From positions 1 through 40,536 of IMG/VR virus record IMGVR_UViG_3300033233_000086: DNA of 40,536 nucleotides; one strand, given 5' to 3'. Below, piece after piece: positions 14,787 through 40,536 of the stretch. The stretch is from a virus. Numbering within the stretch: position 1 is the first letter of the stretch; each line of letters starts with the position of its first letter. The notes below the pieces were generated by a model. That model was not told where the DNA came from. It did no database searches and saw nothing but the letters and a program-made list of their open reading frames with translations. Position numbers and translations under genes: made by a program.

Positions 14787-15950
14787 ATGCTATTACCGCA
14801 TCAGCAGAAGGCGATAGAAAAGTTTGAAGGGTATTCTTATTTAGCTTGGGAAACGGGAACTGGTAAGACTTTAACGGCGTTAAAGATAGCTGAGAATTTT
14901 CGGAATGTGCTTATTATGTGTCCAGCTTCGGTCAAACAGGTATGGTATCAAGAGATTGAAAAATGGGGTATAAGATTGAATAATTTTGAGATTGTAAGCT
15001 ATGATTGGTTTAGGATACATTATAAGAAAGTGTTGAATAAAGCGTTTTGGAATTTGATTATTTTTGATGAAGCACATAAGCTAAAGAGTATTCGAGCCCA
15101 GATTACGAAGCTTGTTATGAAAGTGTTCACAAAGACATATAAAGTTATGCTAAGCGGGACACCATTTGAGAAACCTGAAGATTATTACAGTCAATTAAGA
15201 ATTTTACGACCAGATCATCCATTTAATCAGTTATCATTTACTCAATATAAGAATTCATTTTTTAGGATTGATGGGATGTTTTATTACATTATTGATTTTC
15301 TACCTGGAATAAAGGACAAATTTATTGAGCGATATGTCTTGCGATATGTTGATTTTGTTAAGCGTGCAGATATTGTAGAATTGCCCAGTTTGATAGAAGA
15401 TGATAAATATTTTTCATCTGAGCGATATTTGATTGAACAAAAGAATAAACAAATTGATGGAGATAATATTTTACAAGCATTTATGTATGAGTATAGAAAG
15501 AATGCTTTGCTAAAGGATAAAATTGATTATGTGATTGATTTTATAACTGATAACCTACAGACTGTAGTGTTTAGTTATTTTATTGAGCCATTGCAACATA
15601 TAGTAAAGAAGCTTGGTAGGAAGAATGTTTATTTTTTAACAGGACAAGACAAGAAGGATTTAGAGTATGCATTGAAGGAAGGGGAGAAACCTATCTTAGC
15701 AACTTATTGTATATCGGAAGGGATTAATTTAACAAAGTATAAGAATATTATTTTTCTTTGTCTTCCTTTAGCATGGAGGACTTATGAGCAGGCATTGAGT
15801 AGGGTTTGGCGGTATGGGCAAGAAGATAAAGTTTATTTACAGAGATTGATAGATAAAAAAGGGATTGACCCTAAAGTTTGGCGGATACTTAAGAGAAAGG
15901 GTGATGTGCTTGAAGAGTTAAAACGGCGGGGGAGTTTGAGCGATGAATGA
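14787..15950 (+). CDS. SNF2-type SF2 helicase, 387 aa
   Basis: The superfamily 2 motifs are in order: Q-like LLPHQQKAI at 2-10, Walker A ETGTGKT at 22-28, DEAH at 94-97, motif III LSGTPFE near 119-125, and motif VI EQALSRVWRYGQEDK near 337-351, typical of SNF2 proteins (R-x-x-R-x-GQ). It is short for the family, with only the two motor lobes. The ribosome site is weak, so translation is probably coupled to the upstream gene; the stop overlaps the primase start by eight bases. It is probably a DNA translocase for replication or recombination. Confidence 0.85.
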   Translation: MLLPHQQKAIEKFEGYSYLAWETGTGKTLTALKIAENFRNVLIMCPASVKQVWYQEIEKWGIRLNNFEIVSYDWFRIHYKKVLNKAFWNLIIFDEAHKLKSIRAQITKLVMKVFTKTYKVMLSGTPFEKPEDYYSQLRILRPDHPFNQLSFTQYKNSFFRIDGMFYYIIDFLPGIKDKFIERYVLRYVDFVKRADIVELPSLIEDDKYFSSERYLIEQKNKQIDGDNILQAFMYEYRKNALLKDKIDYVIDFITDNLQTVVFSYFIEPLQHIVKKLGRKNVYFLTGQDKKDLEYALKEGEKPILATYCISEGINLTKYKNIIFLCLPLAWRTYEQALSRVWRYGQEDKVYLQRLIDKKGIDPKVWRILKRKGDVLEELKRRGSLSDE

Positions 15951-32605: not shown

Positions 32606-33828
32606 TGGCTGTATTATGGTTAACGACTGGAATGGATTGTGGATACATTGAAGAATTTGCCAAGCATGAAGAGGTTTATTTATTTGCTGATTTTATTAGT
32701 GCATTCCCAGATATGGAAGACCTTGCATTTGGTAGAAATATTCAAAATGTTCAAATACTAACTGATTTACCACCAGAAATTTTTAGTAAAATTGATAAAG
32801 TTATAACGCTTGATTGCTACTTTGGTTTCCTTATCGAATTATTTAAGCAATTAAAAATTGATGTTTTCGGTGCTGGAGTAGAAGCTCGGCTTGAAAATAA
32901 CCGTTTATTCCAAAAACAATTAATGCCTAAAGTTCCAAATTATCGTGTGGTAAGCTTTGATAAACTAAACTATCCAGCAATTACCAAAGTTGACCCAATT
33001 TATAGGAATTCCTTTGAAAGTGCAATTATTAGGAACCAATATGAGCTTGAATTCTATAAACAGAAACTCATCCAAACCGCTGGACAATTTGCTAAAGACA
33101 TCGATTACTACCAAGAAGAAATTTTATCTGACATTGAAATTGAATTTGGAATTGATTGTTTGTGCCTTGGAAATGGTATTGAACCACCCTTTACTATAGG
33201 AATTGAACAAAGCAAAAATTCTTACATTGCTAAGGTTGTCAAAAGAAAAGAAGACATCTTAATGAAACCATGGGCTCTTAATCTTAGAATGTGTGATACC
33301 CTCTTACAACAAATGAAATATATAGGCTTCTTCTCAACCGAAGAAATTAAAGTCAAAGGAGAAACTGAACCTTACTTAATTGATATCTGCATGAGACTTG
33401 CCTTACCTTTAGGCACCGCTTATTTGAAATTCTATTCTAACATCTATCAAGCTATCCGAAACAATATCCCACTTATCCCTAAAGCTGAATATATCTATGT
33501 TATACCAATATCCTTACCATTAGCCGAACAAACCTTTGTGCCAATCACTTTTAAAGATAAATACATCTTCGAACACTTCATTGCTCTACAAACTTATTAT
33601 AAACCTAAGGTGCAAAAGGATCTTACATTCTACGCCATCAAGGGTTATTCCACCGTTGGATGTATTGTTTTATACTCAAATTATTTGGTAGACTATGAAG
33701 AACTTGAAGAACAGGTCAAAAAAATTGAAGAAACAATCATAGCTCCAGACCTAAAAATTGGATACGATACCTTGAAAGAAAACTACGAAAACTTCCAAAA
33801 AATGCTCGAAATCCTTGAATTAGATTGA
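32605..33828 (+). CDS. ATP-grasp ligase-like protein, 407 aa
   Basis: Signatures of the ATP-grasp fold: VFGAGVEARLENNRLFQK at 87-104 (compare GP-GAE-A-LE-SK in PurD), AITKVDPIYRNSFESA at 125-140 for the ATP-binding region, EIEFGIDCL near 178-186 and YLIDICMRLALP near 257-268 at the metal site. In many family members that last motif is E-x-N-x-R; here it is D-x-C-M-R, so the usual Asn is missing. These enzymes join a carboxylate to an amine or thiol through an acyl-phosphate. AAGGGG precedes the start. The substrate is unknown. Confidence 0.7.
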   Translation: MAVLWLTTGMDCGYIEEFAKHEEVYLFADFISAFPDMEDLAFGRNIQNVQILTDLPPEIFSKIDKVITLDCYFGFLIELFKQLKIDVFGAGVEARLENNRLFQKQLMPKVPNYRVVSFDKLNYPAITKVDPIYRNSFESAIIRNQYELEFYKQKLIQTAGQFAKDIDYYQEEILSDIEIEFGIDCLCLGNGIEPPFTIGIEQSKNSYIAKVVKRKEDILMKPWALNLRMCDTLLQQMKYIGFFSTEEIKVKGETEPYLIDICMRLALPLGTAYLKFYSNIYQAIRNNIPLIPKAEYIYVIPISLPLAEQTFVPITFKDKYIFEHFIALQTYYKPKVQKDLTFYAIKGYSTVGCIVLYSNYLVDYEELEEQVKKIEETIIAPDLKIGYDTLKENYENFQKMLEILELD

Positions 33829-34128
33829 TGATCTAACAAACGATACAAAACTTCCTGCACTTACATTAGCATCAATCTCTATCTTAACAAATAAACCTAT
33901 CAATTCTATAGTCTGTGAGCCTGATGTATTACTAATCGTTTGAGAATAAACTTGCAACCAGTTTACATTGTCCGTCGATACTTTAATTGTTATAGTTGCT
34001 GTTCCATTAATATTGTAAATCAAATACCCATACTTATAAACTTGTGTAGGAAGAACTTTACTAATTAGTCCACTATACGCTCCATTGATTAAATTAGTCG
34101 CTTCCTTTAACGGTGCTATAATAAACAT
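33820..34128 (-). CDS. Small beta-sandwich virion protein, 102 aa
   Basis: The sequence is almost all short strands rich in Thr, Val, Ile and Asn (ATITIKVSTDNVNWLQVYSQ near 44-63), like small phage virion or receptor-binding accessory proteins; the STDNVNW-L pattern is common in carbohydrate-binding-like folds. A GGTGG site lies seven bases upstream and the gene abuts the previous stop. It is the last gene of the leftward unit and its end overlaps the ATP-grasp gene by nine bases. Confidence 0.5.
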   Translation of the reverse strand: MFIIAPLKEATNLINGAYSGLISKVLPTQVYKYGYLIYNINGTATITIKVSTDNVNWLQVYSQTISNTSGSQTIELIGLFVKIEIDANVSAGSFVSFVRSSI

Positions 34129-34512
34129 TTACTTAACCACCCAAATTAATATGCCTAACAAAACACCAATCCCTAAATATTTACCCTTCTCAATTAATCC
34201 CACTTTTGATTTCTTTTCGCATTCTTTCAACGCTGTATCATACAACTGTCTCTGATTTTTATAAAGCTCTATTTGTTCTTTCAATAACTGATTTTGCTCC
34301 TTCAAGATTTCATTCTGCTTCTTCAAATTTTCAATCAATCCTTCATATTCTTGAACCTCTTGCTCTAATACTCGCTTTTGCTTCAATTCTACTATTACCT
34401 GCTTAGCTTGCTCTTCAGGTATACAGATATCAACCGCGTACGCTTGGCTTGCTAAAAATAAACATACTAATAAACTACTTAATAACCGCTTCATAATGCA
34501 ATAGTTTACCAT
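34129..34512 (-). CDS. Exported coiled-coil membrane protein, possible spanin part, 127 aa
   Basis: The signal sequence is KRLLSSLLVCLFLASQAYA, with cleavage near residue 26, followed by a long Gln/Leu coiled coil (about 40-100) and a C-terminal hydrophobic segment LGIGVLLGILIWVVK. I chose 34512 since a GGAG site lies seven bases upstream. With the membrane-anchored coiled-coil protein at 35185 it would make a two-component periplasmic bridge, but ordinary outer-membrane spanins carry a lipobox, which is not seen here, so the pairing is tentative. Confidence 0.5.
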   Translation of the reverse strand: MVNYCIMKRLLSSLLVCLFLASQAYAVDICIPEEQAKQVIVELKQKRVLEQEVQEYEGLIENLKKQNEILKEQNQLLKEQIELYKNQRQLYDTALKECEKKSKVGLIEKGKYLGIGVLLGILIWVVK

Positions 34513-35188
34513 TGCGTTTCTCCAATTCAAATTGTTTTTCTATTTCAAAAATACTTAAATCGGGCTTAAACTTTCTCCAAGTTTTGCTCTCCATTTCTTT
34601 TATTTTCTCCCAAAGCTCAGGATAATATGTATAAATAGCTCTCAATTTATCAATCCCCACAAGTGGACAACAATAACATGAAGTCCGTGAAATTTTGCTA
34701 TATATCCCACCAAAATCAAAACCTTTTGAATAACAATACTCAAGTGCTTGCTTTTCTGTTATCTCCCATTCTACAAGAGGATATCTATAATGTTTTTTAG
34801 GCTTTGCTCTCTTCTTTTCATCATAAGCAATTCCAACATAAATAGTATAATCATCTTGTAATGAATTTAAAAATTGTGCCATTAAATCTCTTTTCTTAGA
34901 TGTGCACCACCGCGATTGAATTGACGGAAAACTGTAACCTCTCTTATCAATATTTTTACCTCTACTTTTCTGATGCTCAAAGAAATAATAATCATAATCA
35001 AATTTTAGCCGTGTAATTTTTAAAGGTGCAATGTATCTTTCAAGCTTTTCCAAATGCTCATATATCTCAGGAAACTCTTTAGTCGTATCTACAAAAACAA
35101 CATAATCTATTGGCATACCTCTTTCTAACATCATAAGCAACATTGCCGTGCTGTCTTTCCCGCCTGATAAACTTACTACATGCTTCAT
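34475..35188 (-). CDS. PAPS-reductase-like ATP pyrophosphatase, 237 aa
   Basis: The P-loop SLSGGKDSTAML at residues 6-17 is the PP-motif of adenylyl-transfer enzymes in the PAPS reductase family, with Lys11 and Asp12; SRWCTSKKRD near 91-100 and a Cys cluster SCYCCPLVG near 170-178 complete the family pattern. Phage members may act on sulfur or modify nucleic acids, as DndC does, but the reaction here is unknown. It overlaps its neighbours by ATGA and by 38 bases. It is unusual to find it between spanin-like genes in a lysis cluster. Confidence 0.8.
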   Translation of the reverse strand: MKHVVSLSGGKDSTAMLLMMLERGMPIDYVVFVDTTKEFPEIYEHLEKLERYIAPLKITRLKFDYDYYFFEHQKSRGKNIDKRGYSFPSIQSRWCTSKKRDLMAQFLNSLQDDYTIYVGIAYDEKKRAKPKKHYRYPLVEWEITEKQALEYCYSKGFDFGGIYSKISRTSCYCCPLVGIDKLRAIYTYYPELWEKIKEMESKTWRKFKPDLSIFEIEKQFELEKRNGKLLHYEAVIK

Positions 35189-37420: not shown

Positions 37421-38044
37421 CTACCAATATTTATAAGTTCGTTCTGTTATTCCTTCTTTATATTTTAATCCATTTCTCCAAACTTTGTAGCCATATTGAT
37501 AATTAATATCACAACTTGTCCGCCACTGCAAACATTGCCCTGCCCGCTTCCATACACAAATACTCTCCGCAAACTTCTCATTACACAACTCAAATGCCCT
37601 CCCCCATATACAACCAGCTTGCCCTGCTTCCCTATTAATCTTCCAACATGACCGATTATAACACTGATACACACACCAAAGCTTCTTACAACGCACTTGA
37701 CTAATCAACTGTTTGATTAAATATGCCTGAGCCATAAAATGGTCTATATGCCCCTTCACCTTCCAATTCGAGAACATCACATTCAGCCAAGGCAAAAATC
37801 TCTCTGTTAATTGGGCATAACCTACTGAACCCCATCCATCTAAAGAAGTCCGCCATATGCAATTAGTCTCCGTTTCTATCTGTCCCATATTATACCAATA
37901 AGGATAATCTAAACCTAATATAAACTCCGATGCCTGTCTCACTTTAGGCACCAACTTATAACATTCAGAGGCATTAGCCACTTGCCACAATCCAAGCACT
38001 ACCAAGCAAAATAGCAAGATAATATGCCCTCTTAGCCCATTCAT
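37421..38044 (-). CDS. Exported Cys-rich muramidase (SLT-like endolysin), 207 aa
   Basis: A signal sequence (HIILLFCLVVLGLWQVANA, about 7-25) leads to a lysozyme-like domain: GQIETETN with Glu57/Glu59 as acid candidates, then SLDGWGSVGYAQLT at 67-80, matching the ES...S..G..G..Q pattern of soluble lytic transglycosylases. Eleven Cys after the signal suggest several disulfides and export. It cuts peptidoglycan at lysis. The start at 38044 has GGGGG upstream and overlaps the upstream membrane-protein gene by 71 bases. Confidence 0.75.
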   Translation of the reverse strand: MNGLRGHIILLFCLVVLGLWQVANASECYKLVPKVRQASEFILGLDYPYWYNMGQIETETNCIWRTSLDGWGSVGYAQLTERFLPWLNVMFSNWKVKGHIDHFMAQAYLIKQLISQVRCKKLWCVYQCYNRSCWKINREAGQAGCIWGRAFELCNEKFAESICVWKRAGQCLQWRTSCDINYQYGYKVWRNGLKYKEGITERTYKYW

Positions 38045-38243
38045 CGTTCCCCCAATCTATATGCCCTATTCTAATCAATCTTGTTAAATAAGCAAACACA
38101 TACCATAAAGACAATAGAAATACTTTCTTAACTACAAACTGAAATGGTTCAAAAAAGAAACCACTTAGCCCTGTTATAAAAAACACCAAACCCAAAACTA
38201 TTATCACCCAATGCCAACCAAATTGCTGTAAATACTTGTTCAT
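37974..38243 (-). CDS. Holin candidate, three membrane segments, 89 aa
   Basis: Three hydrophobic segments (about 11-32, 37-56 and 70-88) with a short RIGHIDWGNDEWAKR loop give a small membrane protein of holin size. The IR..HIDW motif resembles phage holin-like proteins I have seen, though no firm family is assigned. TAGGAGG precedes the start. It lies next to the endolysin, with which it overlaps. It should open the cell membrane at lysis and let the enzyme out. Confidence 0.6.
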   Translation of the reverse strand: MNKYLQQFGWHWVIIVLGLVFFITGLSGFFFEPFQFVVKKVFLLSLWYVFAYLTRLIRIGHIDWGNDEWAKRAYYLAILLGSAWIVASG

Positions 38244-38253
38244 CTATATCCTC

Positions 38254-38529
38254 CTAAGACCGCTCTTGAGTTAACATTTTAATTAACAGCTCAAATTTCT
38301 CATCTATCTTTCTGTTGATTTTTTCTAATGTTATTTCTAATCTCTCTTCAATTTTTTCTAATCGTTCATACAACCTACCAATTTCATCATCAAACATATC
38401 CATCCGTTGCCGACAAACTTCTTTTATATTATCAGGTTGTTTTAACTCAACCAACCAATCCCAAACTATCTTAAACAATATACCAAGACACCCAGCAATC
38501 AATAAATAAACTATTGTCTCTGGGTTCAC
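38254..38529 (-). CDS. Membrane coiled-coil lysis-cluster protein, 91 aa
   Basis: A single transmembrane segment TIVYLLIAGCLGILFKIVWD (5-24) is followed by a charged coiled coil (about 33-85). It starts with GTG at 38529; the ribosome site AGGGGGAAAA lies inside the upstream recoded gene, whose stop overlaps this start as GTGA. It may be a holin partner, antiholin or spanin-like protein; the layout fits all three. Confidence 0.55.
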   Translation of the reverse strand: MNPETIVYLLIAGCLGILFKIVWDWLVELKQPDNIKEVCRQRMDMFDDEIGRLYERLEKIEERLEITLEKINRKIDEKFELLIKMLTQERS

Positions 38530-38675
38530 TTTTTCCCCCTTTTCTTTTTCTTAACCCACTTACCGCCAGGTCCCCTGACCCAGCCAGTAGACTTAGCTCA
38601 TATCGCATATGCTTCAGATTTTGTATGCCCTTTTCGCATTACCCGCTTCACACAATCATCGAGCTGTTTAGGCAT
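38526..38675 (-). CDS. 49-codon gene with in-frame UGA (candidate selenocysteine recoding)
   Basis: The start at 38675 has GAGGAGG upstream and overlaps the previous gene by eight bases. It encodes MPKQLDDCVKRVMRKGHTKS then EAYAI (codons 1-25), UGA at codon 26 (38600-38598), then AKSTGWVRGPGGKW and a KKKKRGKK end, with stop UGA at 38528-38526 overlapping the next start as GTGA. Small phage proteins I know of this kind have AYAIC here, so UGA replaces Cys. The UGA is followed by a SECIS-like hairpin. The reading frame after the stop stays open and keeps its operon overlap, so it is probably translated. A point mutation, error or plain readthrough is possible. Confidence 0.6.
38565..38584 (-). 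promoter_or_regulatory. SECIS-like hairpin after in-frame UGA
   Basis: GCTGGGTC (38584-38577) pairs with GACCTGGC (38572-38565), eight pairs with two G-U, around a loop AGGG. The loop starts 21 bases after the UGA and has G at its second position, meeting the published geometry for bacterial SECIS elements. Coding constraints could produce it by chance. Confidence 0.4.
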
Positions 38676-39030
38676 CTTTTCTCCTCCTCAACGCAATTCC
38701 AAACATCTGAACCATATCCCCATTATCAAGCGTCTTTGGTCTCCATCCTATATAAAACTCTATCCTCTTTCCTCTATAACTGAAAAACGGCAAAATCAAA
38801 TTCCAACTCCTCTTACTAGACCAAACACGCCATTCAGATGGATAATTAAATGTCCCTATTACCCTTGTATCAAAATTATGAAGCGGGTTCCTAATAAAAA
38901 ACCATATAAACTCTCTCAAGTTTTCATTCCTATTTGGCATAAACCAATCAGGTGGCTCAGGGCTATCATCATTACCAAATATTGCCCAAATCAATCTACT
39001 ACTCTGTAAAATTCTCTTTACTAATGCCAT
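38668..39030 (-). CDS. Phage protein with RNPLHNF motif, 120 aa
   Basis: It carries FIWFFIRNPLHNFDTRVIGT near 41-60 and WRPKTLDNGDMVQMFGIALRRR near 96-117. The W..RNPLHNF..YVIG pattern recurs in small phage proteins of unknown function often placed beside lysis or tail genes (I recall DUF7338-like proteins). The middle is aromatic, basic and strand-rich. AAGGGAA precedes the start. Its end overlaps the recoded gene by eight bases. Role unknown. Confidence 0.6.
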   Translation of the reverse strand: MALVKRILQSSRLIWAIFGNDDSPEPPDWFMPNRNENLREFIWFFIRNPLHNFDTRVIGTFNYPSEWRVWSSKRSWNLILPFFSYRGKRIEFYIGWRPKTLDNGDMVQMFGIALRRRKDA

Positions 39031-39470: not shown

Positions 39471-40536
39471 TATGCTAACCTCCTGACTAAAATTATTCCA
39501 CTCATCGCTTGTGGAAAAACAAATGTTCCTAAAGATGTCCAAGCTGTTGTTGTATCATTCCACTGACTTACATAACAATTCATTACAGGTGCATTTGATT
39601 GTCCTGTCGCTATATTTATTCCTCTAACAGTTTTATGATTAGTAAAATTTACTAAATAAACTCTCTCATCAGAATATCCCCAACCTATTCTAAAAGAACT
39701 ATAAGTAACCGTGCTATATCCTGGTCCAGAAGCTCCAAAAGTTACATAAACTTCTACATAAGTAAAAGCATTTGAATAAGTAGTATTATTTGGATTTAAA
39801 TAGGTAGGACTTGAAGTAGCTCCAGAAGTTCCTACATTAGCTGATGAAATTACATCCATCTCATACATAGTCCCACTTTGCGTCGCTATCCGCAATGGTA
39901 CACTTGTAGCATTAGTAAAACTTATATAAGCTTCTTCTCCAACTTGCAAATTATAATCACTTGTCGCATTAGTCAAATCTACTCTTCTAAAAGTATAAAC
40001 ATTACTCTTTACATAAGTCGCACTCAAATCCAAAAACCCACTTGCATTCAAAGGAACTATCACATTCGGACCAGGTGTCAAACTTGCATGAAAAGTATCT
40101 AACATATCAGCATTTAATCCACTGCCACTACCTTGAGGGCTTATACTACTTGGTGGTTGCGTTCCCGTATGATTAGCTCTATTTAAATAATAACTTCCTT
40201 CTTGCCCATCTAATTTGTCAGCATTTAATCCACTGCCACTACCTTGAGGGCTTATACTACTTGGTGGTTGCGTTCCCGTATGATTAGCTCTATTCAAATA
40301 ATAACTTCCTTCTTGCCCATCTAATTTATCTGCATTACTTACATTCGATTGCCAATTTGTTCCATCGTATATTTTTAATACTGGTGGATTAACCGATGTA
40401 TCAAACCATAATTGACCTATATATGGAGTTGATGGTGCAGTATTTCCTTCATATGGTGCATTTACTACTTGCCAATTTGTTCCGTCATATATTTTTAATA
40501 CTGGCGGTGAAACAGTTGTATCAAACCAAAATTGAC
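39470..40536 (-). CDS. Tail fibre, C-terminal part (upstream part at 398-1)
   Basis: This is the C-terminal portion of the fibre that starts at 398 and crosses the junction; bases 40431-40536 repeat 106-1. After the last GQLWFDTSVNPPVLKIYDGT module come two NADKLDGQEGSYYLNRANHT-type repeats encoded by a 111-base tandem repeat, then a beta-rich head of about 190 residues (from ADMLDTFHASLTPG on) that should bind the receptor. The repeat type is known from phage tail-fibre collars. The end overlaps the next gene by one base. Recombination between repeats could alter fibre length. Confidence 0.8.
   Translation of the reverse strand, partial: QFWFDTTVSPPVLKIYDGTNWQVVNAPYEGNTAPSTPYIGQLWFDTSVNPPVLKIYDGTNWQSNVSNADKLDGQEGSYYLNRANHTGTQPPSSISPQGSGSGLNADKLDGQEGSYYLNRANHTGTQPPSSISPQGSGSGLNADMLDTFHASLTPGPNVIVPLNASGFLDLSATYVKSNVYTFRRVDLTNATSDYNLQVGEEAYISFTNATSVPLRIATQSGTMYEMDVISSANVGTSGATSSPTYLNPNNTTYSNAFTYVEVYVTFGASGPGYSTVTYSSFRIGWGYSDERVYLVNFTNHKTVRGINIATGQSNAPVMNCYVSQWNDTTTAWTSLGTFVFPQAMSGIILVRRLA
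40107..40328. repeat. 111-bp tandem repeat inside the tail fibre
   Basis: Two copies (40107-40217 and 40218-40328) of 37 codons each are nearly identical, differing at very few bases (T/C at the ATTTAAAT/ATTCAAAT site and at the ends). It encodes the NADKLDG...NRANHTGTQ fibre repeat. Confidence 0.9.
40431..40536. repeat. Terminal direct repeat (copy 2)
   Basis: Identical to 1-106. See the left copy: it marks circular closure at about 40,430 bp within the fibre gene. Confidence 0.85.

Follow-up and report, generated by a model that had tools for sequence, protein, structure and literature searches.

A probable selenoprotein gene with an in-frame UGA and a SECIS-like hairpin in a phage genome, and its cysteine counterparts

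A short gene in the viral DNA analysed here (IMG/VR record IMGVR_UViG_3300033233_000086, positions 1 to 40,536, referred to as the window) contains an in-frame UGA at codon 26, which raises the question whether translation ends there, after 25 residues, or whether the codon is read as selenocysteine (Sec). Bacterial, archaeal and eukaryotic selenoproteins have been catalogued, and a few viruses of animals also encode one. The gene occupies 38526..38675 on the minus strand, a point left unstated in an earlier, sequence-only reading of this DNA, and starts with ATG at 38675-38673. The strong ribosome site claimed in that reading was found as AGGAGG (38683..38688, minus strand), 7 nt before the ATG. 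The UGA that is the predicted Sec codon lies at 38598..38600 (minus strand) and is followed by 23 more codons before the final stop, the TGA at 38526..38528 (minus strand), which overlaps the GTG start of the next gene (38529-38527); the open frame and the GTGA overlap had both been claimed, and both are present. With Sec at codon 26, the product would have 49 residues (MPKQLDDCVKRVMRKGHTKSEAYAI[U]AKSTGWVRGPGGKWVKKKKRGKK). The overlapping next gene (38254..38529, minus strand) encodes, as read from its sequence, one membrane segment and a coiled coil, and has a weak PHROG match to a family of unknown kind. A probable lysis module comes directly after the candidate selenoprotein gene, with two further genes (37421..38243, minus strand) for a small membrane protein, apparently holin-like, and a secreted protein, apparently transglycosylase-like. 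Neither has a Pfam match above the cut-off; a holin and a lytic transglycosylase have been reported for Pyrovirus (PMC7689252).

Relatives of the gene were gathered from IMG/VR by protein, alignment and DNA-pattern scans, which gave about 65 distinct sequences. Codon 26 is Cys (TGT or TGC) throughout, the exceptions being the window and six independent hot-spring contigs with TGA: L002 and L003 (both from metagenome 3300033233), L005 (3300005860), L007 (3300034696), L009 (3300028675) and L098/L107 (3300005854; both ends of one contig, counted once). The position is occupied by TGA or Cys and never by any other residue, and among stop codons only by UGA, never by UAG or UAA. The TGA is shared by seven independent genomes, six of these from five named metagenomes, where a published criterion asks for at least two independent sequences with an in-frame TGA (PMC1088965). 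Relatives keep the N-terminal portion, the stretch with GW and GGKW that follows the TGA, and the overlap with the next gene. Among the TGA copies only, the differences after the TGA number 22/6/119 on codon positions 1/2/3, and 97 codon changes are synonymous versus 34 replacing. Because the differences fall mostly on the third codon position, the part after the stop appears to be translated, and these counts argue clearly that coding selection continues beyond the TGA. Two broader TGA patterns, run on viral contigs for more distant TGA copies, matched only non-homologous chance sequences beyond the known copies. The sequence-only reading had placed the UGA at a Cys position and proposed homologue alignment as a check; Cys stands there in all non-TGA relatives, no homologue stopping at codon 25 for good was seen, and the recurrence of the TGA in independent contigs rules out a read error.

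A changed genetic code, which had been judged unlikely on the grounds that TGA is a normal stop elsewhere, is ruled out, since six of the window's 40 clear genes, among them that at 15950, end in TGA as an ordinary stop. Among 144 testable stops of the window outside gene interiors, the codon-26 TGA is the sole one at which most relatives keep both flanks and the non-stop relatives all have one same residue (Cys); this count comes from a filtered scan, unfiltered scans being swamped by matches that overlap real genes in the wrong frame. The other gene-terminal TGAs are without a comparable hairpin (0 to -10.8 versus -15.8 kcal/mol). Elsewhere in the window, at 33820-34530 (minus strand), two adjacent open reading frames lie in one frame and are parted by a single TAA (34131-34129), a position where six relatives stop as well, the frame being otherwise continuous; these are probably two genes.

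Folding, comparison and published constraints (PMC13188914) point to a predicted bacterial-type SECIS hairpin at 38565..38584 (minus strand) behind the UGA. Its 8 bp stem (GCUGGGUC/GACCUGGC) pairs 38584-38577 with 38572-38565 around the loop AGGG (38576-38573), and the distance from UGA to loop is 21 nt. The bacterial SECIS model has a loop of 3-9 nt, a stem of 4-16 bp, a UGA-to-loop distance of 16-37 nt and an MFE of -7.5 or lower, with G and then G/U among the first loop positions (PMC13188914). The hairpin agrees with every one of these constraints (AGGG, 8 bp, 21 nt, -15.8 kcal/mol), which bears out the earlier claim of an 8-bp hairpin with an AGGG loop in the SECIS range after the UGA, and the same hairpin (8 bp, AGGG, 21 nt) is found in all seven TGA copies.

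The hairpin region of the TGA copies has an MFE of -15.4 to -20.6 kcal/mol, and such an energy was reached by only 0-12 of 2000 synonymous recodings per TGA copy (same protein, the phage's codon usage, 2000 trials per copy), while seven close Cys copies had no excess folding over the synonymous null. The hairpin could be partly a by-product of the coding sequence, but the synonymous null argues against this. Stem cells are paired in 100% of cases in the eight hairpin-bearing copies versus 48% in the close Cys copies. Three stem pairs vary, each on one side only (G-C to G-U and the like), and all still pair; double-sided covariation was absent from these three variable pairs among the eight hairpin-bearing copies. 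All hairpin-bearing copies use AGG for the loop's Arg codon and the close Cys copies use CGT or CGG; the synonymous sites of the hairpin are likewise frozen in the former and variable in the latter. A covariance model of the hairpin gave one strong match per TGA genome (G016 has a copy at each end) and one in the L001 contig, with nothing of similar score elsewhere in the genomes scanned; no Rfam family matches the hairpin. The copy in L001 (3001-3147) has Cys and keeps the hairpin intact, so that it looks like a recent Sec-to-Cys change, a natural intermediate.

On this comparative evidence, the gene is very probably a phage selenoprotein gene, the identity of Sec being deduced from the conserved UGA, the Cys homologues and the hairpin. 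The hairpin behind UGA-26 would act as a bacterial SECIS element. The host's SelA and SelD would make Sec-tRNA-Sec and its SelB would carry it; binding of SelB to the AGGG loop would deliver Sec at UGA-26, and the ribosome would go on past residue 25 to complete the 49-residue protein. The phage would rely on a Sec-decoding host, itself bringing no machinery. Related phages have a Cys allele without the hairpin, and the two alleles would have been exchanged several times.

A stable hairpin after a UGA can also stimulate readthrough, and the conservation of the frame beyond the stop is compatible with a near-cognate tRNA (Trp, Cys or Arg) that reads the UGA at low efficiency, so that a small share of the product is extended. 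We consider this highly improbable: the homologous residue is always Cys and never Trp, Arg or Gly, the 25-residue form would end in the conserved core before GW and GGKW, and the match of loop, stem and distance to the SECIS model comes with a codon that is UGA alone among the stops. Reading of the UGA as Cys, by a tRNA-Cys with a UCA anticodon or by Sec machinery loading sulfur for selenium, would agree with the Cys at position 26 of all other homologues. It is given even less probability, as no tRNA gene is present in the window, TGA is a normal stop elsewhere, and a free UGA-Cys tRNA needs no hairpin, yet the hairpin goes with the TGA copies.

The chance that the codon is a plain stop, through a sequencing error, a pseudogene or a 25-residue protein with relict sequence behind it, appears almost negligible. 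TGA is indeed one base away from TGT and TGC, and the Cys copy in L001 suggests that the states interconvert; what weighs against a plain stop is that seven independent genomes share the TGA, that coding selection goes on downstream with the stop overlap to the next gene kept, and that the synonymous sites of the hairpin are held fixed where the hairpin is present and vary in close Cys copies.

Two positions of the protein, Cys8 and Cys/Sec26, never vary among the 38 members aligned. Structure prediction gives a helical hairpin (helices 3-15 and 19-30) and then a small beta hairpin, at a mean pLDDT of 84.5; residues 8 and 26 lie at symmetric places on the two sides of the helical turn. From this symmetry a selenenylsulfide or redox pair of Cys8 and Sec26 is proposed; the pair, and a role built on it, is a tentative suggestion from the structural model, and on balance somewhat doubtful. 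The window protein matched no Pfam, NCBIfam or PHROG family, a PDB fold search with it gave nothing significant, and a search of a viral library returned one match, an unnamed protein (44 residues, 65% identical). The two-Cys helical-hairpin motif also heads longer phage reading frames, close to the matches in L055, L058, L063, L077 and L085, and one protein in the aligned family has a match to the PHROG of a head maturation protease.

The window carries a 106 bp direct terminal repeat (1-106 and 40431-40536) and is therefore probably a complete genome of 40,536 bp, with polymerase, terminase, portal and head matches. It has 37 of 48 tested genes in common with G016, at a mean identity of 72%. 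The GC content is 35.5% in G016 and 36.8% in G014 (first 40 kb), and published values are 35.5% for ACSV and 36.9% for TGBSV (PMC7689252); we infer that G016 is ACSV (Conch37) and G014 is TGBSV (GBS41), both of the proposed genus Pyrovirus. Through G016, the window phage would belong to the Pyrovirus group as well, and it agrees with the features that mark the group: a family-A polymerase, portal, terminase, capsid, a genome of 37-42 kb and shared gene content. ACSV is a published virus that bears the TGA.

Pyrovirus has been predicted from CRISPR spacers to infect Aquificae, though a CRISPR comparison of ACSV with four Aquificae isolates gave no match (PMC7689252). Several of the source metagenomes are from Yellowstone geothermal sites (PMC9723716). 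In this phylum, tRNA-Sec is found in Aquificaceae except Hydrogenobaculum, and Hydrogenothermaceae are without it (PMC4227106). The host is most likely an Aquificaceae bacterium that decodes Sec, and the patchy distribution of tRNA-Sec among hosts would account for the persistence of both alleles. The window has no tRNA gene, and searches of the window and its relatives yielded no tRNA-Sec above the cut-off in 21 records and no SelB above the cut-off in 17 records. As the phage is probably complete and without tRNA-Sec or SelB, the Sec machinery would have to be the host's.

Weak tRNA-Sec matches in G013 and G015 were rejected as tRNA-Arg. These two Cys-allele contigs have one tRNA-Arg(UCU) each, and the TGA-allele contig G005 has a tRNA-Phe (the three genes are at L130 7972-8047, L132 5731-5806 and L135 2583-2662). 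The window also contains a PAPS-reductase-family gene (34475-35188, minus strand), whose best plasmid match is 48% identical and from Crassaminicella thermophila; no match to it was found in G016 or in the covered part of G008.

Close relatives differ repeatedly in having TGA or Cys, and the hairpin follows the TGA. A tree built from the downstream flank requires six changes of state; only three independent TGA/Cys pairs lie on well-supported branches, a number that cannot reach significance in a sign test. In the contig G008, identity to the window is 97% for the polymerase and 99.7% for the major head protein, yet its allele is the Cys one, with no hairpin. From codon 26 on, G008 is 78% identical to the window, versus 88% before and 86% after that segment. 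The reverse is seen in L007, a more distant contig with TGA, which is 88% identical to the window from codon 26 on versus 72-73% on either side. More generally, distant TGA copies are closer to the window in the hairpin segment than in their flanks, and the close Cys copy L012 is farther. The identity pattern of G008 and L007 suggests that alleles were exchanged by recombination or that switching occurred repeatedly.

The wider proposal is that this is the first selenoprotein family of bacterial viruses: the phages, without Sec machinery of their own, would rely on the host's and, in moving between Sec-decoding and non-decoding Aquificota hosts, would swap a UGA-plus-SECIS allele for a SECIS-free Cys allele. 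We put its probability at not quite an even chance. With a phage gene that requires Sec, the selenium status of the host would be a determinant of infection and the exchange of Sec and Cys alleles would be explained. The family is small, with many natural Cys counterparts. Standard gene calling would stop such genes at codon 25 or overlook them, and further selenoproteins of viruses may therefore have gone unnoticed. No earlier description of a phage selenoprotein turned up in the open-licence literature searched; in a 2026 review of the prokaryotic selenoproteome, no word starts with phage, virus or viral. The main text of the paper on Pyrovirus (TOSV, TGBSV, AJCSV and ACSV), the same virus group as the window, has no word starting with 'seleno' (PMC7689252).

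Compared with known systems, the candidate gene is most readily set beside bacterial selenoproteins of the formate dehydrogenase type, with which it shares a UGA for Sec, a hairpin in the coding region right downstream, a small loop with G, a distance in range and Cys homologues; unlike them, it is encoded by a virus and belongs to an uncharacterised family of 49 residues. The glutathione peroxidases of poxviruses (Molluscum contagiosum and fowlpox) are also virus-encoded selenoproteins that use host machinery, the fowlpox SECIS lying in the coding sequence (PMC8310308), but they belong to eukaryotic viruses, have a eukaryotic SECIS and are unrelated enzymes. Basilisk-like Bacillus phages are likewise tied to Sec decoding. 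Those phages are reported to bring a tRNA-Sec gene (PMC6145125), whereas the window phage would bring a Sec-coding gene and no tRNA-Sec.
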